A stretch of DNA of 50,379 nucleotides from a virus. Position 1 is the first letter of the stretch. Every line of letters begins with the position of its first letter. Where the stretch lies: positions 1 to 50,379 of IMG/VR virus record IMGVR_UViG_3300050020_000163; one strand, 5' to 3'. The translations under genes were made by a program, and so were the position numbers. The notes under the pieces were generated by a model. The model did no database searches. It saw only the letters and a program-made list of their open reading frames with translations, and was not told the DNA's origin. Shown here piece after piece: positions 1,516-50,379 of this stretch.

Positions 1516-3813
1516 TTATGCCATCACCTCAATTTGTGTGCCATGCCCGTTCTTTGACACTTCGATTCGCTGAGGTAGACGATCCTTAATGGTGTCGCGG
1601 TGGGAAATGACCAAAATGCAACCGAATACGCTTCGCAGTTTGTTGATACAGTCAATGAGCGCATCTTCCCCTGCCTCGTCTAGGGGACTACAACACTCGT
1701 CTAAAACGAGCGTCTCTATCTTCGTGCCCGTCCTCTGGGCCAACACCCTGCCGAGCGCAATCCTCACGGAGAGGTCAATCCTGAGCTTTTCTCCACCCGA
1801 GAACTCCTCATAGAACCGCTCACCAGTCGAGACCGACACCACAATGTCGAGGGTTTCGGCAATACCACCGCTGGTCTGCCTCTGCGTGACCAACTTCAGG
1901 GACATCTTGCCATCGGACAACTGAGACAGCACTTCGTTGGCGTGATCCTGTATGTCGGGAATCGCCGCATCTATCACAAGCGCCGGTATCCCATTGCGGC
2001 TGAAAGCGTCTTGCAGCGTGACGTATATCATTCGCTTGTGGCCCAACTCCCCGAGCCCCGCAGTGACCCGCAGCAGTTCGGCCTCAGCCTCCGCAATCTG
2101 CTTGAGCCGTTCATCGTATACCGCGATCTGCCCGGCGGTAGTCTCGATTTGCTTGCTGAAACCGCCGCATACCAAATCCCAGTCAAGCCCGAATGGATCA
2201 TCGACCGCGCTAACTTTGGCCTTGAGCGCATCCCGATCTTGATCTAGCCCCATCCCCTGCAGCTTTTTGCCGCGAAGCGTCTTGTCAAGATCGTTCTTCG
2301 ATTTCCGGGCAGCGTCCACGCGGGATTCAGCCGCGGTGATCTCCAGCAGGAGTTCCCGTGCCTGACGATCCGAGTCATACTGCCGCTGGATAGTCTCGTG
2401 CTGGCTCTTGTCGTAGCCGATGGCCTGTCCCTGCATATGGGAGATAGTTGTCGAGAATACGGTGAACTCCTTTTTCCATCGCGCATCAATCTCGGCAATC
2501 TGAGATTCCCCGCGTTCGAGCAGATTCGCGATCAGAGGCTTAACCTCGTCTATTGCCGCCTGATGCTCTTTCGCCTCCGTCTCTAAGTCGAGACTCTTCA
2601 GCCCGGCGTCGCGGGCATCAGCCAGTAGTTTGCACTCCCCGGCCATTGCCGTGCCGTTGCAGGGAACTTCACCCAGCAGGGCAGACCGCCTCCTAGCGTT
2701 CTCTAGGTGAACCTCAACATTCCGAAGCGCCGCCTCGGCGAACCCAAGCTTCTTATCGAGGTCGGCGGTCTCTGACTCCAGCTTCCGCTTCGCCTGTGCA
2801 CTTTCAAGATCGATTGCAGCTTTTGCGGCATCCCTCTCCGACTCCTTATCCCTGTAGGCCTGCGTGAGTTCCACGTATTTGTCTCGGGCGGTGGACAATG
2901 CCACCAGTTCAGCCTCCAACCTGTCAGCCTCCGCGCACTTCTCGCGGATAATTGGAGCCTGGGAGATCAGTCTTTGAGCGCCGTCTACGATGCCCTGCTG
3001 CTCGTTGATCTGGCTGAGTAGCCCGCTCATTTCACGGCTGAGGTCTGCAATCTGCCGTTCCAGTTCCGCAAGCCTAGCCATGTCGGCTTTGGCTGTAGCC
3101 TGCGCCTGCCGCAACTTGTCGCGCTCAGACTCAGCTTCCGTCAGTTGTTTCTTGAGATTATGGAGATCACTCGTCAGCCGCGCCCGGTCCTCCGTCACGT
3201 CGGCCTTGACCGCTATCCGCGTTTCCAGATCATCGCGCTTCGTTCGAGCCACGACCAGGGCCTCGTCAACGCCCTTGACGGTCTGCTTCGCCGCCTCGTG
3301 GAGTGGCCCGAACTTGCCGAGCCTGTCTTCCAGCAGTTGCATCAGGAGTTCCTTGCGCTCCCTCGGCTGCGCAGTGCAGATGCCCGCACTCTCGCCCTGC
3401 AAGACGAAGCTCGACGCCAAGAATAGGTCTTTGTCCATTGCCAGGTCACGAACGATCTTAGCCTGAGTTTCGGCCATAGTCGCGCCTGTCAGCGGTTGCC
3501 AGTCGTCATAGTCACCGACCATGTATTGTAGGTCAGACCGTTTCCCGCGACTCCGCTTACGAATCACGCGGTAGACCTGACCATTGTGCAGATAATCGAA
3601 TTGCACGCTGGCTTCGTCAGAGCCATCCCGAACAAGCCCGTCTATGCGAGAACTACGCGACTCGCCGAAAATGCTCCACAGCATTCCCTCCACAATCGTA
3701 CTCTTGCCCGCCCCGTTGGGTCCGGTGATTGCCGCCGCGTCGATAACCGACAGGTCGATGTCGGCAGATTCGATAGCACGGTAATTCGAGAGTGTGAGGT
3801 TAACGGGTTTCAT
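1516..3813 (-). CDS. sbcC: SbcC/Rad50-like SMC-family ATPase
   Basis: A 765-residue ATPase subunit of a Mre11-Rad50-type nuclease complex, partner of SbcD at 4589-5740. Walker A GPNGAGKST is at residues 31-39. Two long coiled-coil arms follow, with an apex CNGTAMAGEC near residue 395 where Rad50 has its CxxC zinc hook. The ABC signature FSGGEK and a Walker B segment LVLDECC come near the C-terminus, then a VISHR switch. Two features are odd: the hook cysteines are spaced C-x8-C instead of CxxC, and the Walker B Pro is replaced (DECC for DEP). ATG 3813 overlaps the stop of the octapeptide gene (ATGA). It is shorter than the roughly 1050 aa of E. coli SbcC, as is usual in phages. It probably processes DNA ends or hairpins during replication. 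Confidence 0.93.
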   Translation of the reverse strand: MKPVNLTLSNYRAIESADIDLSVIDAAAITGPNGAGKSTIVEGMLWSIFGESRSSRIDGLVRDGSDEASVQFDYLHNGQVYRVIRKRSRGKRSDLQYMVGDYDDWQPLTGATMAETQAKIVRDLAMDKDLFLASSFVLQGESAGICTAQPRERKELLMQLLEDRLGKFGPLHEAAKQTVKGVDEALVVARTKRDDLETRIAVKADVTEDRARLTSDLHNLKKQLTEAESERDKLRQAQATAKADMARLAELERQIADLSREMSGLLSQINEQQGIVDGAQRLISQAPIIREKCAEADRLEAELVALSTARDKYVELTQAYRDKESERDAAKAAIDLESAQAKRKLESETADLDKKLGFAEAALRNVEVHLENARRRSALLGEVPCNGTAMAGECKLLADARDAGLKSLDLETEAKEHQAAIDEVKPLIANLLERGESQIAEIDARWKKEFTVFSTTISHMQGQAIGYDKSQHETIQRQYDSDRQARELLLEITAAESRVDAARKSKNDLDKTLRGKKLQGMGLDQDRDALKAKVSAVDDPFGLDWDLVCGGFSKQIETTAGQIAVYDERLKQIAEAEAELLRVTAGLGELGHKRMIYVTLQDAFSRNGIPALVIDAAIPDIQDHANEVLSQLSDGKMSLKLVTQRQTSGGIAETLDIVVSVSTGERFYEEFSGGEKLRIDLSVRIALGRVLAQRTGTKIETLVLDECCSPLDEAGEDALIDCINKLRSVFGCILVISHRDTIKDRLPQRIEVSKNGHGTQIEVMA

Positions 3814-4592
3814 GGCGCCACCTTTGCCTTTTCGACAAAACAACCGTGCTCATCGAGCACATAAGCTTTGTCGGCAACCAGACCATCCTCACCGATGTAG
3901 CCGGTAACTATGCGATATCTTGCGCCGTCCCAACGCCGAATCTGAATCGTGCCTGCATAGCCCGCAGTGGCAGTGCCTCGATTGCCCGCAGTGGCAGTGC
4001 CTGCATAGCCCGCAGTGGCAGTGCCTGCATCGCCCGCAGTGGCAGTGCCTCGATTGCCCGCAGTGGCAGTGCCTGCATAGCCCGCAGTGGCAGTGCCTCG
4101 ATTGCCCGCAGTGGCAGTGCCTGCATAGCCCGCAGTGGCAGTGCCTGCATCGCCCGCAGTGGCAGTGCCTGCATAGCCCGCAGTGGCAGTGCCTGCATAG
4201 CCCGCAGTGGCAGTCAATCCCACTATTGCGCGTCCGGCTCCCCCATTGTCGTGGATGTATTGAGCAGCGTCACAACGGCCACCGACGAATACGACCACGC
4301 CACGTGGGAACTTGCATTTGCCTGTCAGGTCTTTTCCGTGGGCCTCTGTCAGCACACAGGCTTCGTCTACCTCGACCACAAGCCATTTCGCAGTGTTGGA
4401 GAGGTCACACAACCAGGCATTGCCCTCACCCCAGGGCAGACCGTGAAGACCTCCACCACATACAGGCTTTCCATTCCAGTCTGGAGCTTCGACCGGTCCT
4501 TTTACCGGCCATTGGAAGCCGTTGTGACTCGTCAGGTCGGCCTTGCACGTTCGCAGCACAAGCATTTTTGATGATCCCTTTCCCTTTCTCAT
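3810..4592 (-). CDS. Octapeptide-repeat protein, copy 1
   Basis: A 260-residue protein with two parts. Residues 1 to about 140 form a unique domain (RTCKADLTSHNGFQWP start, CGGGLHGLPWGEG, VVEVDEA). Eleven perfect-phase octapeptides TATAG(Y/D/N)(A/R)G follow, then a C-terminal cap of about 45 residues (IQIRRWDGARYRIVTGYIGEDG). Written as AGYAGTAT, the unit matches 6 of 8 positions of the ice-nucleation-protein consensus AGYGSTxT, including the TxT strand and the tyrosine. Such repeats fold as a beta-solenoid in INP. It lies between sbcD and sbcC with ATGA overlaps on both sides (4592/4589 and 3813/3810), so it is co-translated with them. Starts 4592 and 4566 are both possible. Function unknown. 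Confidence 0.88.
   Translation of the reverse strand: MRKGKGSSKMLVLRTCKADLTSHNGFQWPVKGPVEAPDWNGKPVCGGGLHGLPWGEGNAWLCDLSNTAKWLVVEVDEACVLTEAHGKDLTGKCKFPRGVVVFVGGRCDAAQYIHDNGGAGRAIVGLTATAGYAGTATAGYAGTATAGDAGTATAGYAGTATAGNRGTATAGYAGTATAGNRGTATAGDAGTATAGYAGTATAGNRGTATAGYAGTIQIRRWDGARYRIVTGYIGEDGLVADKAYVLDEHGCFVEKAKVAP
3949..4214 (-). repeat. 24-bp tandem repeat array in octapeptide gene 1
   Basis: Eleven 24-bp units, each close to CCCGCAGTGGCAGTGCCTGC followed by a variable four bases (ATAG, ATCG) or the CTCGATTG form. They encode Tyr-Ala, Asp-Ala or Asn-Arg at the two variable positions. Units are nearly identical even at silent sites, which points to recent expansion or gene conversion. Confidence 0.95.
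4141..4391. repeat. Long direct repeat, right copy (partner 1-251)
   Basis: Identical over 251 bp to the start of the window. Outside it the two octapeptide genes differ at many positions, so this block looks homogenised. Together with 1-251 it brackets a 4.14-kb segment holding sbcC and the zinc-ribbon genes. Confidence 0.95.
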
Positions 4593-5740
4593 ACCGCACA
4601 CGTCCTTTCTAACTCTTCCCCCGCCGCCACAAGCTCGTCTAATGGCGCGTCGGATGACTTGCTCGAATGCCAGACCCGTATCAACTCCCCGACCGATACA
4701 GCGTGGACTATCTCTTCCGACCGAATGGAGGCCACGCGCTGGACGTCCTCGGAGTAGCCTCGGTAATCCCATGCGCCTGCATTCCATACCATTTGCTCGA
4801 ACCACGGATAGTCGGGCTTTTCGTTATCTGGTCGCTGATACGTGAGCCTGCAGATGGAGTCCTTGACGTTCTCCAAGTCGCTTCCCACGCGGAACTCGCC
4901 CTCCTCAAACACGACGGGCACGGTCACATACTCCCTGCACGGAATCGCCACCCGATCCCACGTCCCCGCCTCGGTGTCCATGATCACGTACGACTTAAAT
5001 TGGTTTTCCTCCCCAAAGTCAATTCTATCGGTGCTCCCGCAGTAGAACACGTTGGGCCTCCCAAAACTGCCGAAGTCCTGCGCGTAGTGTACATGACCGA
5101 GCGCCGTAAACGTGAACTCCTCCGGTATTGCGCTCAGCGGAATCACGATGTCGCGCCCTGCCATAATCCCCCGCTCCGCCCCCGGCTCCGCCACATCAAG
5201 CGAGATATGACTGAGCAGGACGGACGGCAACTTCGGGTCAAGCTGGGCGGCGAGCCCCCGAAGTATTTGCTGCATGTGAGCAGATATGAGATCATCCGCG
5301 TCCTGCGGGGAGAGCTTGTCGTAGCCGTCGAGAGTGGCGGCCAGCTGAGCCCGGTTGGGATAGGGCAGAGTGGCGATTTGGACATCAAAATACCTCAGTA
5401 GCTGAGGCGTGTTGAATGCGTTCTGCCCGAAGATTGGCTCCAGCGCGTTATGCTCATTTGCGGCCCTCGGCAGGTCGTGATTGCCCGGTATGGCATAGAT
5501 TGGCGCATCGGCCTCCCGAAGCGCGTTGCTCACCAATACCAACTCAGTCGGAGTCGGTTTGTGATTGCGGAATAAGTCGCCACCCATCAGAATTAGATCG
5601 ACATTCCTCTTGTTGGCGTCCATTATTACAAACTCCAGCGACTGCACGGTATCCAGCAGACGGCTATTTAGCGCACTGGATTCATCCGTTCGTTTCGCGT
5701 AACTCCCAATATGGCAATCAGAGAAAGCGGCGATCCTCAC
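4589..5740 (-). CDS. sbcD: SbcD/Mre11-like nuclease
   Basis: A 383-residue metallophosphoesterase-fold nuclease, catalytic partner of SbcC. All phosphodiesterase motifs are visible in order: DCHIGS (Asp8, His10), GGDLFRN, PGNHDLP, LSHISLD and ALGHVHYAQ, which supply the two-metal site of Mre11 nucleases. The C-terminal part resembles the capping and SbcC-contact region. GTG 5740 overlaps the stop of the previous gene (GTGA), and the protein motif begins directly after this start (VRIAAFSDCH), so the longer upstream frame is not needed. The downstream neighbour is the octapeptide gene, an unusual interruption of the sbcDC pair. It likely opens hairpins or processes ends in phage replication and recombination. 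Confidence 0.95.
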   Translation of the reverse strand: MRIAAFSDCHIGSYAKRTDESSALNSRLLDTVQSLEFVIMDANKRNVDLILMGGDLFRNHKPTPTELVLVSNALREADAPIYAIPGNHDLPRAANEHNALEPIFGQNAFNTPQLLRYFDVQIATLPYPNRAQLAATLDGYDKLSPQDADDLISAHMQQILRGLAAQLDPKLPSVLLSHISLDVAEPGAERGIMAGRDIVIPLSAIPEEFTFTALGHVHYAQDFGSFGRPNVFYCGSTDRIDFGEENQFKSYVIMDTEAGTWDRVAIPCREYVTVPVVFEEGEFRVGSDLENVKDSICRLTYQRPDNEKPDYPWFEQMVWNAGAWDYRGYSEDVQRVASIRSEEIVHAVSVGELIRVWHSSKSSDAPLDELVAAGEELERTCAV

Positions 5741-6066
5741 GATTGCACCTCTGCTTTCGCTCTCACGGCCTTGGTCCTCAGCTCGATTGCAAAGTCGAAG
5801 TCCACGCATCCAGCGCACTTCGGGCAGTACCCGTTAAACAGGGTGTCGCTCGGCTCCTCACAGCAGCCACAGATGGCGGCGGTCCGGTCAAATATCCCGA
5901 GCGGTCCAGCGGTGTTGATGAGGTCAACCATATCCGCATGCTTCATGTCGATCTCCAGATCATCACCCAGGACCAAAGTTACGAACCCTGGCCGCAATTT
6001 GTCAGTGAACTCGCAAATGTCGTCCACATCCTCGTGACTGAGTATCCGCCTTTCTATCTTTTTCAT
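5737..6066 (-). CDS. Small zinc-ribbon protein
   Basis: A 109-residue protein starting MKKIERRIL at ATG 6066, overlapping the preceding TGA (ATGA). An N-terminal alpha/beta segment is followed by a four-cysteine cluster, CGCCEEP then CPKCAGC (about residues 66-88), typical of a structural zinc ribbon. It sits between the RDF-like gene and sbcD in a chain of overlapping early genes. No family recognised. Confidence 0.75.
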   Translation of the reverse strand: MKKIERRILSHEDVDDICEFTDKLRPGFVTLVLGDDLEIDMKHADMVDLINTAGPLGIFDRTAAICGCCEEPSDTLFNGYCPKCAGCVDFDFAIELRTKAVRAKAEVQS

Positions 6067-9789: not shown

Positions 9790-10425
9790 GTGGGATTCTT
9801 TCGCTTCCAAAGACGCCTCAAGATTTGCAAAGGCCTCAATGTCAATCTCAGTAAGCGCGGCATAGGTATCAGTGCGGGTCCGCGCGGAGCGAAGATCGGC
9901 ATAAACTCAAGGGGTCAAAGATATTCATCTTTCGGAATACCCGGAACCGGATTGTCGTACCGAAGCGTTCAGAGGAAAGGTGGCACGTCGTTTGTCGATG
10001 GACTGATGGTGATCGCGGAGATAATAGGGTGGCTCAAAGGAAAAACTGCGAGACCCGAACCAACGCAGCAGGTCGATGTCGACGCGCTATCTAAGACCCT
10101 ATTTACAGACGAGTTCGTCCGCGCTAATACAGATTTTCCGAGTTCTGCAAGCATGCTCTCTGCTTTGGAAGCTATTGGATCAGTCGATTCAGAAACAGTG
10201 TTCGACAACTTAGTGGTTCAGCACAGTCACTTTTCGACATTTGAGGAATTGATTCGGACCGCCAAATTGACCAGAGCAAGCAGTGCGAATGGCAATAACC
10301 GGCCCTCAGCTCCTAGCCAGGCGAATCTTTCTGAAGAGGAGCAGTCCAGAAGATTCACTGTAAACCTGATTGTCGGATGCAGTATAGGACTTGTAGTTAT
10401 GATACTGATCTTCAGCAGATTCTAG
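9790..10425 (+). CDS. DUF4236-domain protein with C-terminal membrane anchor
   Basis: A 211-residue protein. Residues 1-60 carry the DUF4236 pattern: FRFQRRLKICKGLNVNLSKR, then GIGISAGPRGAKIGINSRG and GTGLSYR. A helical middle follows, and one C-terminal hydrophobic segment, VNLIVGCSIGLVVMILIF. It begins 4 nt after the repressor stop, so it is co-transcribed and expressed in the lysogen. DUF4236 has no established function. Its place in the lysogeny operon suggests superinfection exclusion or host modification. Confidence 0.8.
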   Translation: MGFFRFQRRLKICKGLNVNLSKRGIGISAGPRGAKIGINSRGQRYSSFGIPGTGLSYRSVQRKGGTSFVDGLMVIAEIIGWLKGKTARPEPTQQVDVDALSKTLFTDEFVRANTDFPSSASMLSALEAIGSVDSETVFDNLVVQHSHFSTFEELIRTAKLTRASSANGNNRPSAPSQANLSEEEQSRRFTVNLIVGCSIGLVVMILIFSRF

Positions 10426-16772: not shown

Positions 16773-17740
16773 GGTGAATCGTCTCCATCGGCAATCGGCA
16801 GACCGAGAACGCTGGCGAGATTCACGTAGGCATACCCGAAGCTGCCGTCTGGATTCTGCGCGGAATCCCATCCCGGCCACGTATATATAACGCTGCCTAT
16901 AGTTTCCGTCACTACATCAGTTGGGAGTGTTTGACCGACATAGACCGGGGTCGAATCGTAACCGTTGAGTTGAGCGGCGGTGAATGTTCCAATGTCGGGT
17001 AAATTATAGCTCTGCCCGTTCGCCGGGTCCAAATTGCCCGGATAGTCCTTTGACCAAAGCTGCGGAATGCCCTTGGCTACTCGCTGTGTGCGCGGTCTCC
17101 AGTTCAGGTTCCAGTCTTGGTTCTTCCGACTGAATTTATACGAACATAGGCAATTCATCAGGACGCCGTTCACATCCCAGTTTTCGCGCACGGAGGCCCC
17201 AAGGAAAAGCAGCGTTCCGACCGGCGAGCCTTGGAATATGCGGTCATTCAGACAGCCGGTAGCTGTGAAGATCGCATCGAAAGGCGAGGTAGCCATACGG
17301 ATTGTGATGACAAGCTCGCAGTGCGGGATCATCATAGCCACCGGAATGTCCACAGGAGCCCCGTCACTCGCCCAATGGCATGTCACGCCCTTGTTTTGCA
17401 CTTCGCAGGCGAACTCCAGGCTTTTCTCGTAGAAGTTCTCCCCGAACTGCCCTTGGGTGCTATATGAAACCGTGACTTTGCAGTCAAATGCGTCAAGCCT
17501 ATCGCGCGCGATATCGTCTACCCGTAGGAAGAGACCATTGCCACCAGGGAACGGGTCCCACACGTCGCCAAAGTCGGGAAGGAAGCGATTCTGCCCCTGG
17601 ATGTCCTGAAAACCTTCGACAAAGATCGGGTTTCCGAACGCGTCGACCCCGAAGCGCTCAGTCCACAGGCAGAAGAATTCCCGCGTTCCGGTGACTCCTC
17701 GGTGGCCTTCTTTCGTTCTCTCGTTCATAAGACCGATCAT
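16769..17740 (-). CDS. Distal tail / baseplate protein
   Basis: A 323-residue protein directly after the tape measure, where siphophages encode Dit or tip proteins. It is rich in aromatic residues and Gly (FQDIQGQNRFLPDFGDVWDP). It contains several Cys and a C-terminal region (IYTWPGWDSAQNPDG...). No named domain is visible. ATG 17740 overlaps the tape measure stop (ATGA). Confidence 0.6.
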   Translation of the reverse strand: MIGLMNERTKEGHRGVTGTREFFCLWTERFGVDAFGNPIFVEGFQDIQGQNRFLPDFGDVWDPFPGGNGLFLRVDDIARDRLDAFDCKVTVSYSTQGQFGENFYEKSLEFACEVQNKGVTCHWASDGAPVDIPVAMMIPHCELVITIRMATSPFDAIFTATGCLNDRIFQGSPVGTLLFLGASVRENWDVNGVLMNCLCSYKFSRKNQDWNLNWRPRTQRVAKGIPQLWSKDYPGNLDPANGQSYNLPDIGTFTAAQLNGYDSTPVYVGQTLPTDVVTETIGSVIYTWPGWDSAQNPDGSFGYAYVNLASVLGLPIADGDDSP

Positions 17741-20700
17741 CTGTAACCCCCGCTAGTTTCGGTCGCTGTAATGTGCCTTTCCTGGCCTGTAACGAGCTGA
17801 TTCAGTAGTCGCACCAGTTCATTCGACGCATCAGCGCCGCCAATCAGAGAATTGGGTGACGGGCCGCTGCTCACGTTAACCCCCGCCATGACAAGCTCTT
17901 TCATCCTGCCGGGATAGTCTCTAAACTCCTCTTTCGCAGCGGTTATCTCTCTCTGCTGCCACATGCCCTCGGGAGTGGTAAAGCCCATCATGGCTTCCTT
18001 GCGCTGGCGCATGGCCTCGACTTGGCTCAGGATAACTTCCTTTTCTTGGATCATGTGGCCCTGCAGAGCGTTCGACTTTTCGGCCTCTGCCGCTGCAAGC
18101 TGATTTGTGATGGGGATGCCTTTGAGTCTTAGCTCGTTAAGATCAGCGACCGTGGAGTTGTATGCGACATTGGTTGCCAAGTCCGCTGCCTTGCGATCGA
18201 GAGCCGCCGCCTCTACTGTGTATAGCGACTTTGCCACCGGGCTCCCTGCTTGATCGGCGGCGAACTTGAGTATTGCAGACTGCCCCGTGTCTTTCGACGC
18301 CTCGGCTGACATGCCGGCGTTATGCTCGGCAAGTGCCTGGTGAGCGGCTTTGGCTCGAGCGTCATCCCAGGCCTTCCAGAGATTCAGTTGTAGCTTCGCC
18401 GCTGCCGCGTCAAGCATTGCTTGGGCGTGGGGATTGCCAGCGGCTTTCGCATCTACAGCCTGCTGCCATCCTTGTGCGCCCTGCTCATAAGCGGCGTCCA
18501 CGGCGGCTGCATAGTCGCCTGCTGGGTTGTGCTGCATGGATGCTGCTGAGGCCGCGGTCTGGTACTGCAGAGCGACGCCCTCGGCCTGCTGGTCATAGAA
18601 CATCTTCTGCATTTCTTTGGTTGCCTGAGTGCGCTCACTCTGGGCTGCGGCGATCATTCCCTCGCGGGCTTTCTTGGTGTATTTATACTGCCCGGTGTTT
18701 GGGTCAATCTCCGTGACCGCGTGCATCGCGTCCTGATAGGCCTTCTGAAGCTTCAATTGAGCAGCACCTATCAAATTCCCGGCGGCTACCTCGTGAGCAA
18801 TTCCGGCGTTTGCGATTGCCAGAGACTCCTCATGGCTGCGGTCCCGGATATACTGCGTCTGCTTGATATTGGCTTTTCGCGTTTCGGCTTGAGTGGTAGC
18901 CGCGTCCAGATCGTCCGCTTGCTGCTTGCGATCTCTGACTTCATCAGCGGTGAGGCCGTTGTGGATGTCTTCCTGCTGCTTCTTGATCGCTTCTGCCTGG
19001 CGGGTAGCGTGTTCTTGCCCGACTTTGCTGATCGCCGCGCCATAAGGGTCGCCGGCAGCTTCTGCTTGAGCGGCTTTGACCTCGGCGTCTTTCGCCTGCT
19101 TTTCGAGGTCCCAGATTTTGCCTTGAGGGGAGTTCTTAAACTCGTCGGAACCGGGAGTTGCGGCGGCGTTCATGCCCCTGGCAGCGTCTGTGAGGAGCTG
19201 TTTCTGCTTGGCTTTGTCGCCTGCGATGCGTTTTCGCTGGGCATCATAAAAATCCGCTGTATCGTTTTGAGGATCTAGGTTGTGTCCTACCCAATCGTTA
19301 GCCGCATTCCACCAGTTGCGAATCGTGCTATCGCTGCCAGCTAAGTACTTCTGAGCCTGATGGATATCCTCGCTAATCGCATCGGCCTGATCGCGGGCTT
19401 TCTTTCCAGCGTCAAGTTGAGGGGCGGCTGGGTTCACGCCAGCGAGCTTCTGCTGGGATGCCGTAAAGGCGTCGTTCGCCGCCGCGAGGGTGGCAGTCGG
19501 CTTTCCTCTGGAGTCATTCAGATCGTTCTGAGCTTTCGTTGCCTCTTTTGCGGCTATAGCCTCTTTGTAAAGCTGGTTTTCGACATCCTTGTCGGAGTCG
19601 GAAAGGCCTGACATACTGTGAGCCGCGTTATCGAGAGCAACGCCCAAGCCGATAATTGCCGCCGTGGCAAGAGCGATGGGAAGGACGGTAGCGCCTATGG
19701 CAAGCGCCGTGGCTCCAATGCCTCCAGCAGCGACCGCGCCCTCTGTACCGACTGCCGCCTCAGCGGCCCCGACTTCCTCGTAGGCCGCGTTCTGGTATGC
19801 GCCTGTGCGTCTAAACTTGCGACTCCCAACCGTGAGCAATCCGCCCTCAGCATTCTCTCCGCCGCTCGCGGCAGCGGCAACGGCAACGGCGTTCTCCTCA
19901 AGGGCCTTCGTATTGAGCTTGATCGCCGCCGTGTCTACGCCGACTGCTTCCGCATCACGAATGGACGCGGTAGCTTTTACAGCTTCGGCCTCGGTGTCGA
20001 GCTGCACAGCAGCCCTATGAATACCAAGGGAGGATGTAACTGCTACAATGCCTTTGCCAATCAGGCCGAAGCCCGTCAGCAGCGGCCCCAGGACGTAGGC
20101 GAGCCCAACCGTGCCGGCGATAGCAATCTGCAAAGGCGCGGGCAGTATACTGAACGCCCTGGCGACGTCAATAATGATCTTTGCCCCATCTTCCATTGCG
20201 GGGATAAGATCGTTTTTGATGAGCGGAATGACTTGATCCTGCAGAAGCGGAATCATTTCGATTCCCACGGAGCGGAACGCTGCCTCCATGGTCTGCTTGA
20301 TTCCAATGATCTCCTGCTCGAATCCGGCAGCGGCTTGGATTTGGGAATCGGACAGGACTATAGCATTCTTTGCAAGCGCGGCATATTGGCCGGAAGAAAG
20401 CGCCAGGAGGGGAGCCATCGCCGCCATGTTCCTGCCGAATAGTTGTGAGGCTACGGCGTTCCGCTCGGTTATGCTCGTCATTCCCTGGAGCTTGGACATC
20501 ACTTCGGGAAAGAGCTGATCCATTCCCTTGAGGCCACCGCCAACAGCGTCAACATTGATGCGTAGCCGGTGCATGGACATCGCAGCCGTGCCGCCGTCAG
20601 CCTCGATCCCCAGCAACCGCCGCTGCAGCATCCGTATCTGCTCGCTAACTCCATCGAAGTCACCGCCGACTGCCGTTGTGACCCATCGAAGACGCTGTAG

Positions 20701-20991
20701 CTGATCGGCAGTCATGCCCGTGCTCTGCGTAAGATGCTCTATCTGCAGGCCGAACTCTGCCGTCTTGTAAGCCGCGCCCATCAGAAGCCCACTGATCGCT
20801 GTCAGCGGCCCTGTGACGGCGATGTCCAACGTCTTGCCGAGCGTGGTCATCTTCGACGCAAGTCCCTCAATGCTGGAGCCAATCTGCTTGTTGGCTGAAT
20901 CGACGTTGGAGTTGAGCTTGCCTACGCCTTGGAGGGCCTCGCTGATGTCCGCGCCGTATTTGATTATCAACTGCCGATATTCAACTGACAT
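17737..20991 (-). CDS. Tape measure protein
   Basis: A 1084-residue protein, the longest in the window, which sets tail length; at about 1.5 Angstrom per residue this predicts a tail near 160 nm. The N-terminus (YGADISEALQGVGKLNSNVD) is the usual TMP start. Hydrophobic stretches (LQIAIAGTVGLAYVLGPLL; ALAIGATVLPIALATAAIIG) and long Ala/Gln/Lys coiled coils fill the rest. It starts 11 nt inside the end of the sigma-like gene. The size and long tail fit a siphovirus. Confidence 0.92.
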   Translation of the reverse strand: MSVEYRQLIIKYGADISEALQGVGKLNSNVDSANKQIGSSIEGLASKMTTLGKTLDIAVTGPLTAISGLLMGAAYKTAEFGLQIEHLTQSTGMTADQLQRLRWVTTAVGGDFDGVSEQIRMLQRRLLGIEADGGTAAMSMHRLRINVDAVGGGLKGMDQLFPEVMSKLQGMTSITERNAVASQLFGRNMAAMAPLLALSSGQYAALAKNAIVLSDSQIQAAAGFEQEIIGIKQTMEAAFRSVGIEMIPLLQDQVIPLIKNDLIPAMEDGAKIIIDVARAFSILPAPLQIAIAGTVGLAYVLGPLLTGFGLIGKGIVAVTSSLGIHRAAVQLDTEAEAVKATASIRDAEAVGVDTAAIKLNTKALEENAVAVAAAASGGENAEGGLLTVGSRKFRRTGAYQNAAYEEVGAAEAAVGTEGAVAAGGIGATALAIGATVLPIALATAAIIGLGVALDNAAHSMSGLSDSDKDVENQLYKEAIAAKEATKAQNDLNDSRGKPTATLAAANDAFTASQQKLAGVNPAAPQLDAGKKARDQADAISEDIHQAQKYLAGSDSTIRNWWNAANDWVGHNLDPQNDTADFYDAQRKRIAGDKAKQKQLLTDAARGMNAAATPGSDEFKNSPQGKIWDLEKQAKDAEVKAAQAEAAGDPYGAAISKVGQEHATRQAEAIKKQQEDIHNGLTADEVRDRKQQADDLDAATTQAETRKANIKQTQYIRDRSHEESLAIANAGIAHEVAAGNLIGAAQLKLQKAYQDAMHAVTEIDPNTGQYKYTKKAREGMIAAAQSERTQATKEMQKMFYDQQAEGVALQYQTAASAASMQHNPAGDYAAAVDAAYEQGAQGWQQAVDAKAAGNPHAQAMLDAAAAKLQLNLWKAWDDARAKAAHQALAEHNAGMSAEASKDTGQSAILKFAADQAGSPVAKSLYTVEAAALDRKAADLATNVAYNSTVADLNELRLKGIPITNQLAAAEAEKSNALQGHMIQEKEVILSQVEAMRQRKEAMMGFTTPEGMWQQREITAAKEEFRDYPGRMKELVMAGVNVSSGPSPNSLIGGADASNELVRLLNQLVTGQERHITATETSGGYR

Positions 20992-21526
20992 CGAAGGCTC
21001 CTCCTAAGATTGTTCGTAGTTTCGAGAGTGCTCGGAGTCGCTTGCTGTAGATGTTATTCGGTGTGCAGTGAAGCATCCGTGCTACCGAGACTTGGCTACA
21101 TTGCTGGAGGTAAATGAGTCGAATGATTGCCCGGTAGTCGGGCTTTAGCTTCCCTATTGCGAGCTTGAGAACAAGATGGTCAAGGTTGAGGTCGTGGACA
21201 CCCAGCCTCGCCCACCCCTCCCAGTCCGTCTCGGAAGCGTCCAGGCTGGCTGTGACGTGTGGAAGGTCCGCGTGATCAACGCGGCGGTTGTCTGGAAGAC
21301 GTATCAACCGGGACTTGTCCCGGAAGTATTGGATGACGCGTCCGCGCATTCGGGTTACAGCATAAGTTTGGAACTTCACTGACAGGAGGGGGTTGAAGTC
21401 CCGTTCGGCAAGTGCTAGCCCGAGCCGAGCCTCCTGCAGAAGATCATCGTAGTCGGAGTGCCGATGCCATTTTCTGACAACCCAGTAGACCAGATGCTCG
21501 TATTGTGTCTGGTAATCGACAGTCAC
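20981..21526 (-). CDS. Sigma-70-family factor inside the tail operon
   Basis: A 181-residue protein with both functional regions of a small sigma factor. Region 2: residues 25-75, DYDDLLQEARLGLALAERDF, then FQTYAVTRMRGRVIQYFRDK, matching the DLxQEGxxGLxxAxxxFD and FxTYAxxxIRG pattern. Region 4 HTH: about 125-172, KLKPDYRAIIRLIYLQQCSQ then VSVARMLHCTPNNIYSKRL. The middle is short, so it is like SigF/SigB or ECF factors. GTG 21526 overlaps the stop of the frameshifted tail chaperone and its end overlaps the tape measure start by 11 nt, so it is fixed within the tail operon. Phage sigma factors usually sit before the late genes. It could redirect host RNA polymerase, or could have been co-opted as an HTH regulator. 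Confidence 0.85.
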   Translation of the reverse strand: MTVDYQTQYEHLVYWVVRKWHRHSDYDDLLQEARLGLALAERDFNPLLSVKFQTYAVTRMRGRVIQYFRDKSRLIRLPDNRRVDHADLPHVTASLDASETDWEGWARLGVHDLNLDHLVLKLAIGKLKPDYRAIIRLIYLQQCSQVSVARMLHCTPNNIYSKRLRALSKLRTILGGAFDVS

Positions 21527-22022
21527 TTCGTCTCCGTGGACCTGACAGCGCTTCGATGCATAAGCGCCCAGTCAATCCAGTATTGTTCGCGCTCCATCAG
21601 TTCCCAAGGCGCAACTCCGAGCCATTTAGCGGCCTCAAGCACGGGATACCAGTCGGGCATTTCTCCTATCTGGCCGCCGTGCTTGAGCCAGCGCGTTAGG
21701 AGTTGGCCTTCTCGGGGTTTGGGCGGACAGCCGCCATCATTGCAGAATAGATGGAATTGATGACGGATATGCTGAGCTGCGAGAGGTTCTCGGAAGTTAT
21801 GGGAACCGGAGAGCCGTCGTCCCCGAGCACGTCCCAGTCGACTATGCCTCCAACAACCAGGTCGATCTCGGCACCCATTGGGTCTGCTGAACTCTGCAGC
21901 GTAGCCGAAACGGCTGGAGTGTAGAAGTTCCTACGGATGGTGAGGTTGATCGTATCCTCCGCGTCAAGAACGACCTGGCATGGCACGGTTTTATTCACGA
22001 TGTCTGCTAACTTGATTGGCAT
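21523..22022 (-). CDS. Tail assembly chaperone, frameshift product (gpGT-like)
   Basis: A -1 frameshift at 21717-21723 would join the first 102 residues of the 21696-22022 protein to a 64-residue extension ending at TGA 21523, 166 aa in all. The extension (GQLLTRWLKHGGQIGEMPDW, YPVLEAAKWLGVAPWEL) has the conserved APWEL-type motif of the T domain in lambda gpGT-like chaperones, which recruits the tape measure. It has no start of its own. Position between tube and tape measure, motif and slippery site agree. Confidence 0.85.
21696..22022 (-). CDS. Tail assembly chaperone (gpG-like)
   Basis: A 108-residue protein (MPIKLADIVNKTVPCQVVLD) made when no frameshift occurs. It is beta-rich at the N-terminus and helical at the end (SQLSISVINSIYSAMMAA). 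In siphophages, G and GT are produced in a fixed ratio and coat the tape measure during tail assembly; neither is in the virion. An AAAGGAAT site precedes ATG 22022. Confidence 0.82.
   Translation of the reverse strand: MPIKLADIVNKTVPCQVVLDAEDTINLTIRRNFYTPAVSATLQSSADPMGAEIDLVVGGIVDWDVLGDDGSPVPITSENLSQLSISVINSIYSAMMAAVRPNPEKANS
21717..21723 (-). promoter_or_regulatory. Programmed -1 frameshift site CCCAAAC
   Basis: On the minus strand the heptamer C CCA AAC sits in the chaperone frame (CGC CCA AAC CCC GAG), a canonical X XXY YYZ slippery sequence, six codons plus the stop before the zero-frame end. The -1 frame after it encodes the T domain. Confidence 0.88.
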
Positions 22023-22228
22023 GTTGGATTCCTTTCAGATTGTAGATTTAGATTGCAGGACCCGCAGCCGCCACAACCCCAGAACGTGACGGCCGTCGCG
22101 GCTCCCTCGATGTGGCCGCAGTCGAGGTGAAAGGAGGCGCCTATCGGCTAGAGATGAAGAAAAGGCCGATCCTGGGTTAGCACGGAGCGGGTCCTGCTGG
22201 GCCACGTGGGCTCTGTGGACCGAGCGAA
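22023..22228 (-). other. Structured 206-nt gap in the tail operon
   Basis: The gap between tail tube and chaperone has an 11-bp perfect inverted repeat, GCAGGACCCGC at 22055-22065 with GCGGGTCCTGC at 22187-22197. It encloses weaker 6-bp stems (22066-22071/22098-22103, 22105-22110/22122-22127, 22143-22148/22165-22170). It could fold as a multi-branched RNA. On the minus strand it also has an open frame after a TAG that reads FHLDCGHIEG...FWGCGGCGSC and lacks a start, so a decayed small zinc gene is the other explanation. Confidence 0.45.
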
Positions 22229-23089
22229 TTAGACGTTAGTGACGTGGATTCCGTGAGTCGCAGTGTTCATGATCGTGCCATTCAGCTCTATGGCGTAGAT
22301 TCCCTCTTCGTCGGAGAAGCTACCAGGCTCCCCAAAGACTGCGTTGAACGTGAGGGTGATGATTTTGGCTCCGTTGGTGATGGTGATAACGACTGCTTTC
22401 TGGACTCCCGATCCGTATCCCAAGATGGTGGCAGCCTGCGATGCGTTTTCCATCTTGCATGAGAACTTGGCGTCGATTGCCTTCTGAAGGATGTTAGCGA
22501 GCCCGGAGTTGCCGACGAAGAACGCGCCGCCCCACATGTTGGCGACCGAAACCGTCCATTCAAACATCTTAGTGATCGGCACTGAGTCGATTGTGATTCC
22601 CACTCCGGGACCCAGACAGGGAACCTGCGTTGCCGGAGATAGCCCGGACGTTGGGGCGGCTATGGTGGCCTTCTTGCCGACCATCTTCCCGGATAGCGTA
22701 ACCTCGTCACGATTGCCCTTGAGTGTCCAGTCGGTTACGATTCCTCCCGAAATCTGGAGTCCGCCGGCCTCTACCGTGTAGACGTTGGTTGCTGTCACAG
22801 GGTCTACCTGAGCGTCCGACACGACATCGGCGACCAGCAGGCCGAAGTCGGTGTGGGTGGCTTTTCCGTCGAATGCTACTTCGGTCCATTCTCGCCCGGT
22901 AATCACGACTGTGGGCAGTAGGACGCCCCTGGGGGTGAATGCAGTTGTACGACGCTTGATAGAGGGGTTCATCGTTACGGCGCCGACAGCTATAGTTGCG
23001 GCGACTGGACTTCCCCAAACGATTTCTATCCCGAGCTGTCCTTTTTGAAAGGCAGACTCAACGTCATGGACTAATGGAGTTGCAGCCAT
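22229..23089 (-). CDS. Major tail tube protein
   Basis: A 286-residue beta-rich protein (MAATPLVHDVESAFQKGQLG; TLKGNRDEVTLSGKMVGKKA) with the composition and length of siphophage tail tube proteins. It sits just upstream of the chaperone pair and the tape measure, the standard place. Hydrophobic beta strands alternate with Gly/Thr turns. No cysteines cluster. Family not identified beyond this. Confidence 0.75.
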   Translation of the reverse strand: MAATPLVHDVESAFQKGQLGIEIVWGSPVAATIAVGAVTMNPSIKRRTTAFTPRGVLLPTVVITGREWTEVAFDGKATHTDFGLLVADVVSDAQVDPVTATNVYTVEAGGLQISGGIVTDWTLKGNRDEVTLSGKMVGKKATIAAPTSGLSPATQVPCLGPGVGITIDSVPITKMFEWTVSVANMWGGAFFVGNSGLANILQKAIDAKFSCKMENASQAATILGYGSGVQKAVVITITNGAKIITLTFNAVFGEPGSFSDEEGIYAIELNGTIMNTATHGIHVTNV

Positions 23090-42111: not shown

Positions 42112-42193
42112 TAGTAGGCAATATTTGCCTTCGGAATTGAGGCTGTCCGTAGGCAGTATTTGCACACGGACCGAAGGCAATAGTTGCACACGG
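42112..42193. repeat. Three 23-bp iterons (origin or packaging site)
   Basis: Copies at 42112-42134, 42147-42169 and 42171-42193 follow the pattern CCGWAGGCARTAKTTGCACACGG, the first the most diverged. They fill most of the gap between the replication HTH gene and terS. Direct repeats next to an initiator gene suggest an origin; next to terS they could be a pac site. Confidence 0.65.
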
Positions 42194-44711: not shown

Positions 44712-44862
44712 GGGTTATCGTGGTTAACGTGGGTTATCCATTTTCTTGTTAATGCTACGCGAGAGAACGATTAGGAAAGTCAACCATGTAAACACGTTAA
44801 AACTCGTTAACCCGATAACCATTTGCCCCTAAACCGGGTTATCGTGGTTAACGTGGGTTATC
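44712..44862. repeat. Repeat cluster after the primase (candidate origin)
   Basis: A perfect 27-bp direct repeat begins GGGTTATCGTGGTTAACG and occurs at 44712-44738 and 44836-44862. An inverted related site, GTTAACCCGATAACC, is at 44806-44820. GTTAAC motifs continue into the primase 3' end (44918-44937). The 200-nt gap has no credible gene. Such clusters beside a D5 primase-helicase are typical of origins. Confidence 0.65.
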
Positions 44863-49928: not shown

Positions 49929-50379
49929 TCCGACACCGCCTTTTCGACAAAACAACCCTGCTCATCGAGCACATAAGCCTTGTCTGCGAGCAATCCGTCC
50001 TCGCCGATGTATCCAGTGACCACTCGGTATCGAATGCCATCCCAACGACGGATTTGAATCGTGCCTGCATAACCCGCAGTGGCCGTGCCTGCATCGCCCG
50101 CAGTGGCAGTGCCTGCATAGCCCGCAGTGGCAGTGCCTCGATTGCCCGCAGTGGCAGTGCCTGCATAGCCCGCAGTGGCAGTGCCTGCATCGCCCGCAGT
50201 GGCAGTGCCTGCATAGCCCGCAGTGGCAGTGCCTGCATAGCCCGCAGTGGCCGTGCCTGCATCGCCCGCAGTGGCAGTGCCTGCATAGCCCGCAGTGGCA
50301 GTGCCTGCATAGCCCGCAGTGGCAGTCAATCCCACTATTGCGCGTCCGGCTCCCCCATTGTCGTGGATGTATTGAGCAG
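49925..50379 (-). CDS. Octapeptide-repeat protein, copy 2 (C-terminal part)
   Basis: The 3' part of the gene that starts at 455 and crosses the junction (50252 joins base 1). It holds most of the 11 octapeptides and the C-terminal cap TIQIRRWDGIRYRVVTGYIG, which differs at a few positions from copy 1 (ARYRIVTG). The end FVEKAVSE is longer by the different stop. Bases 50253-50379 duplicate 1-127. Confidence 0.85.
   Translation of the reverse strand, partial: AQYIHDNGGAGRAIVGLTATAGYAGTATAGYAGTATAGDAGTATAGYAGTATAGYAGTATAGDAGTATAGYAGTATAGNRGTATAGYAGTATAGDAGTATAGYAGTIQIRRWDGIRYRVVTGYIGEDGLLADKAYVLDEQGCFVEKAVSE
50061..50326 (-). repeat. 24-bp tandem repeat array in octapeptide gene 2
   Basis: Eleven units as in copy 1 but in another order: by residues 6-7 of the unit, from the N-terminus, YA YA DA YA YA DA YA NR YA DA YA, against YA YA DA YA NR YA NR DA YA NR YA in copy 1. 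Confidence 0.93.
50253..50379. repeat. Terminal redundancy, right copy
   Basis: Identical to bases 1-127; the join makes a circle of 50,252 bp. Confidence 0.9.

Follow-up and report, generated by a model that had tools for sequence, protein, structure and literature searches.

A sigma-70-family gene between the frameshifted tail chaperone and tape measure genes of a probable Armatimonadota phage

In tail operons of the lambda type, the major tail protein gene is followed by that of the tail assembly chaperone G, a programmed −1 frameshift extends G to GT, and the tape measure gene comes next (PMC5009743). GT is the minor product, made in lambda at a G to GT ratio of 30:1 (PMC5009743). Phages are also known to encode sigma factors: gp28 and gp34 of SPO1 and gp55 of T4, which belong to the same superfamily as the protein described here, switch middle or late transcription (PMC9429907). 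In the phages compared and the literature consulted here, phage sigma genes are found with early, replication or terminase genes, and the open-access papers yielded no report of one between chaperone and tape measure. Here we describe such a gene in the window, i.e. the whole 50,379-nt viral record, with the following features.

17737–20991, minus strand: tail tape measure protein, 1084 aa (PHROG 8125, 2276 and 1272, E ~2e-10)
20981–20991, minus strand: 11-nt overlap of the sigma gene's 3′ end with the tape measure start (ATG at 20991), from the sequence
20981–21526, minus strand: sigma-70-family factor of 181 aa with a GTG start codon (scores over the cut-offs in Pfam, PHROGs and NCBIfam)
21000–21005, minus strand: AGGAGG, tape measure ribosome-binding site within the sigma coding sequence, from the sequence
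21017–21169, minus strand: sigma region 4, residues 120–170, helix-turn-helix (PF08281)
21308–21505, minus strand: sigma region 2, residues 8–73, core-binding and −10 region (PF04542 and six-frame search)
21523–21526, minus strand: GTGA, GT stop overlapping sigma start, from the sequence
21523–22022, minus strand: predicted GT fusion via −1 frameshift, 166 aa, TGA at 21523 (sequence and relatives)
21532–21535, minus strand: GGAG, possible sigma ribosome-binding site 5 nt before the GTG, from the sequence
21696–22022, minus strand: tail assembly chaperone G, 108 aa (position, −1 frameshift, homology to Armatimonadota G/GT)
21717–21723, minus strand: slippery heptamer CCCAAAC in the 0 frame (X_XXY_YYZ; sequence, and equivalent place in six relatives)
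22023–22228, minus strand: apparently non-coding 206 nt separating the major tail protein and chaperone genes, which abut in several relatives
22229–23089, minus strand: major tail protein (homology and synteny with Armatimonadota prophages)

Three independent libraries place the ORF at 20981–21526 in the sigma-70 family, with domain scores far beyond chance. Pfam identifies Sigma70_r2 (PF04542, 46.1 bits against a cut-off of 24, E 4.1e-12) and Sigma70_r4_2 (PF08281, 39.1 bits against 25.7, E 5.7e-10); the NCBIfam superfamily model TIGR02937 matches nearly the full length (residues 6–173, 88 bits against 42.9); and PHROG 351 (5e-23) and PHROG 1740 (7e-14), both RNA polymerase sigma factors, match as well. 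The first-pass annotation had read regions 2 and 4 in this gene and suggested an HMM search that could have overturned the reading; both Pfam domains lie above their cut-offs and none of the three libraries fails to match. Solved sigma structures are also matched by sequence, FliA and SigA best, mainly via region 2, and a six-frame search of the whole phage genome found this ORF as its sole sigma-2 match. Region 3, expected of Group 3 sigma factors (SigB/F/G, FliA), has no Pfam match up to an E value of 1, the linker between the two domains being ~46 residues long, and the Group 3 subfamily cut-offs are missed (SigBFG, 67.6 versus 234.35 bits; FliA_WhiG, 44.3 versus 189.6 bits). The codon-position GC of the gene (0.64/0.38/0.62) resembles that of its neighbours. 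An AlphaFold model built from the single sequence without an alignment was too poor for use (mean pLDDT 37).

The chaperone itself behaves as expected of a lambda-type operon. That it is frameshifted, as annotated earlier, agrees with the in-frame CCCAAAC and the −1 frame running to 21523. All six Armatimonadota tail modules compared (6/6) have an in-frame heptamer at the equivalent place (CCCAAAA, CCCAAAC, CCCAAAG, AAACCCT or CCCTTTA) followed by a −1 frame, and most of the six chaperones share a motif like WYxxxRAxRYLGVxPWEL; since heptamer and −1 frame are kept in the relatives, the predicted frameshift has comparative support. RNA structure at the slippery site and at the GT/sigma junction is not above that of shuffled sequences, and for the 206-nt gap an Rfam search returned no family and folding was not stronger than in shuffles. 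In prophage G159 (L147 1501–2659) a DUF2460-like tail gene comes immediately after a chaperone with a −1 frame, with no tape measure between.

The departure from the lambda plan lies just downstream, where the 546-nt sigma gene separates GT from the tape measure. The GTGA coupling to the chaperone and the overlap with the tape measure, both claimed in the first-pass annotation, can be read directly from the sequence. Note that the GTGA involves the GT stop only: the 0-frame stop of G lies ~170 nt upstream of the sigma start. A promoter scan listed no minus-strand promoter-like site immediately upstream of the sigma gene, and neither a promoter nor a terminator of its own is apparent. In five Armatimonadota relatives the tape measure starts 4, 27, 4, 37 and −3 nt from the GT stop. 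Given these short distances and the overlaps on both sides, the sigma gene is a seamless insertion, without scar, precisely at the GT/tape measure junction.

Is this placement shared? None of the six Armatimonadota tail modules (0/6) has a sigma gene at the junction, and none was found between chaperone and tape measure in any genome or viral locus examined, including 101 viral loci with a related TerL or MCP, few of which reach the tail genes. In those 101 loci a sigma match occurs in three, one of them weak (L196). Searches of viral contigs, phage records and genome contigs, and of 291 Armatimonadota genomes, turned up no close relative of the protein; the matches in phage records lie below 60% identity and, where near full length, mostly at 23–30%. 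A search of the same 291 genomes with the tape measure, run without a positive control, returned no match. Two phage-record matches, in unannotated ‘Bacteriophage sp.’ entries, were rejected as phage context because their DNA looks bacterial, with an RND-type transporter beside one match and a flagellar operon around the other. A match in Microcystis phage MaAM05 is also surrounded by ribosomal-protein and tRNA-synthetase genes. The sigma gene had been called ‘fixed’ in the tail operon. With no sigma at the relatives' junctions and no close protein relative, this wording is unsupported, and the insertion is lineage-specific rather than a conserved feature.

The related claim that a near-universal gene order is broken holds in part. 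A sigma gene does intervene here, but the junction holds other genes in other phages: in the sixth relative, prophage G188 (L093 12154–13700), ~1.5 kb of other genes including one for a DUF6941 protein lies between GT and tape measure, and Microcystis phage Mae-JY28 apparently has two antisense ORFs at the comparable place. Microbacterium cluster EI phages are reported to carry insertions that separate the major tail protein gene from the tape measure (PMC7302621). The chaperone/tape measure junction accepts other genes elsewhere and tolerates coupled insertions.

The record has identical 127-nt ends, as expected if the genome is complete and closes into a circle, although the ends fall in a repeat-rich region and are therefore not proof of closure. 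Tandem 24-nt repeats and a paralogous segment occupy 1–300, 3826–4440 and 49938–50379 and continue across the record ends (1–300 is 96% identical to 4141–4440, and 49938–50237 is 87% identical to 3826–4125); these segments would encode a repetitive protein, and they support closure. Genes for SbcC-like and SbcD-like nuclease subunits (1516–3843 and 4589–5818, minus strand) stand on either side of the repetitive protein gene. Its serine integrase gene, together with one for an IrrE-type metalloprotease, marks the virus as temperate. A DUF4236 protein (9790–10425, plus strand) is encoded beside the integrase, and viral contig L234 has a relative of it close to its tail genes (11842). Adjoining the primase gene, a 27-nt direct repeat GGGTTATCGTGGTTAACGTGGGTTATC occurs twice at 44712–44862 together with GATAACCC/GTTAAC motifs, making this region a candidate replication origin. 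The minus strand carries the terminase, portal, capsid, neck, tail chaperone, sigma and tape measure genes, and only sigma departs from the customary order. The best head-module relatives among the searched genomes are Armatimonadota prophages (TerL 50%, MCP 53% and portal 37% identical to those of prophage G106), and one viral contig fragment has a 63% identical TerL. Armatimonadota, the only phylum searched broadly, is probably the host phylum.

Taking the sigma identity, its genomic position, the overlaps, the conserved frameshift signal and the absence from relatives as established, we favour a functional sigma factor made late with the tail genes and redirecting host RNA polymerase to phage promoters, a reading whose chances we rate as even. 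On this view, a lambda-type tail operon has taken up a sigma-70-family gene without region 3 just after GT and ahead of the tape measure, and the gene would be co-transcribed with the tail genes; such late expression is suggested by its position, strand and overlaps and by the lack of a nearby minus-strand promoter-like site. The protein would be translated by re-initiation after GT, in a yield that may track frameshift frequency, and would bind the host core polymerase and steer it to phage rather than host promoters, i.e. those of late or very late genes and possibly of its own operon. In support of this reading, both the core-binding/−10 region and the −35-binding region are intact, and the gene lies on the same strand as its neighbours, is coupled upstream through GTGA, overlaps the tape measure downstream and has native codon composition. 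No other sigma-2 match occurs in the genome. Against it, the 19 intergenic gaps of the phage contain no recurrent promoter-like, sigma-specific motif beyond shuffles. Three palindrome-like iterons, (G/T)GCAA(A/C)TA(T/C)TGCC, also stand within 72 nt (42117–42188, minus strand) before the small-terminase-like gene and are a candidate late-operon operator or terminase-binding (pac) site. Their position suggests that another late regulator or a packaging site may stand at the head of the late operon. A sigma factor made only once late transcription is running cannot initiate that transcription, and as the relatives lack the gene, the group does not share a core late function of this kind.

The main rival is that the gene is host-directed cargo, a moron acquired at a tolerated site, which would act mainly on host stress or development promoters, late in infection or in the lysogen, and have no role in the phage programme. 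We consider this possible but distinctly less probable. It draws on the absence of the gene from relatives, on the unrelated genes taken up at the same junction of prophage G188 and on the host-directed sigma factors of Bacillus phages (PMC9429907). The native codon composition, the lack of an apparent promoter or terminator of its own and the overlap of both ends with tail genes speak against it, and coupling to the tail genes would keep the sigma off in a lysogen unless an internal promoter exists.

Alternatively, the sigma gene may have taken the coupled slot of the tape measure, so that it is translated mainly from ribosomes that have made GT; its dose would then be tied to frameshifting and tail assembly and serve as a timer for the last genes. 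This we regard as unlikely, and we are still more doubtful of its further consequence, that transcription of a final gene set waits until tail assembly has begun. It is plausible that GT frameshifting governs the sigma dose: the overlap is with the GT stop alone, well downstream of the 0-frame stop, and the relatives' tape measures start −3 to 37 nt from theirs. Since frameshifting yields GT only as the minority product (30:1 in lambda; PMC5009743), the coupling could keep the sigma low and tied to recoding. The GGAG 5 nt before the GTG would, however, allow independent initiation, and folding at the junction is no stronger than in shuffles.

Two further readings are very improbable. A structural or virion-borne protein, its sigma fold serving in the tail or leaving the virion with the DNA, would suit a gene adjoining the tape measure and recalls phage P23-45, in which a virion RNA polymerase is fused to the tape measure (PMC10770324), but here DNA- and core-binding regions are both retained, there is no fusion to the tape measure, and relatives build tails without a sigma. 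A decayed insertion, for which one may note that no relatives are available to show selection, fits poorly with the intact frame, domain scores well over the cut-offs, native codons and tight overlaps.

Returning to the favoured late phage sigma, its placement in the part of the tail operon where order is most conserved raises the question of whether polymerase specificity is tied to tail assembly or frameshifting. If the coupling is regulatory, it would link a switch in polymerase specificity to GT production, and only then would the finding be of high interest. The likely Armatimonadota temperate phage also offers a view into a little-studied host phylum.

Compared with known systems, the best full-length phage matches (27–30% identity) are the sigma factors of SPO1-like Herelleviridae (PHROG 351/1740; e.g. 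Bacillus phage 043JT007 gp108 and Grass_166). They share sigma-70 regions 2 and 4 with the protein described here, but are 330–428 aa long, come from large lytic phages and, in the stretches read, lie among unnamed genes away from the tail genes. T4 gp55 and SPO1 gp28/gp34 are likewise phage sigmas that redirect the host polymerase (PMC9429907). Their role has been tested functionally, whereas the present sigma is known from its sequence. To our knowledge, their genes are not located in a frameshifted chaperone/tape measure operon. Among bacterial families, the SigB/SigF/SigG subfamily (TIGR02980) is the second-best NCBIfam match and shares regions 2 and 4, but the phage protein stays far under its 234-bit cut-off and lacks region 3. 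Closer to this phage, Armatimonadota prophage G138 has its own sigma-2 gene beside dnaB, outside the tail operon (L100 7784–8650), and Microcystis phage Mwe-Yong1318-1, whose portal, MCP and small-terminase genes are related to those of the present phage, has a weak, sub-threshold sigma-like ORF that immediately precedes the small terminase gene rather than lying in the tail operon. The sigma is thus of a known kind, and it is its placement between chaperone and tape measure that is unusual.
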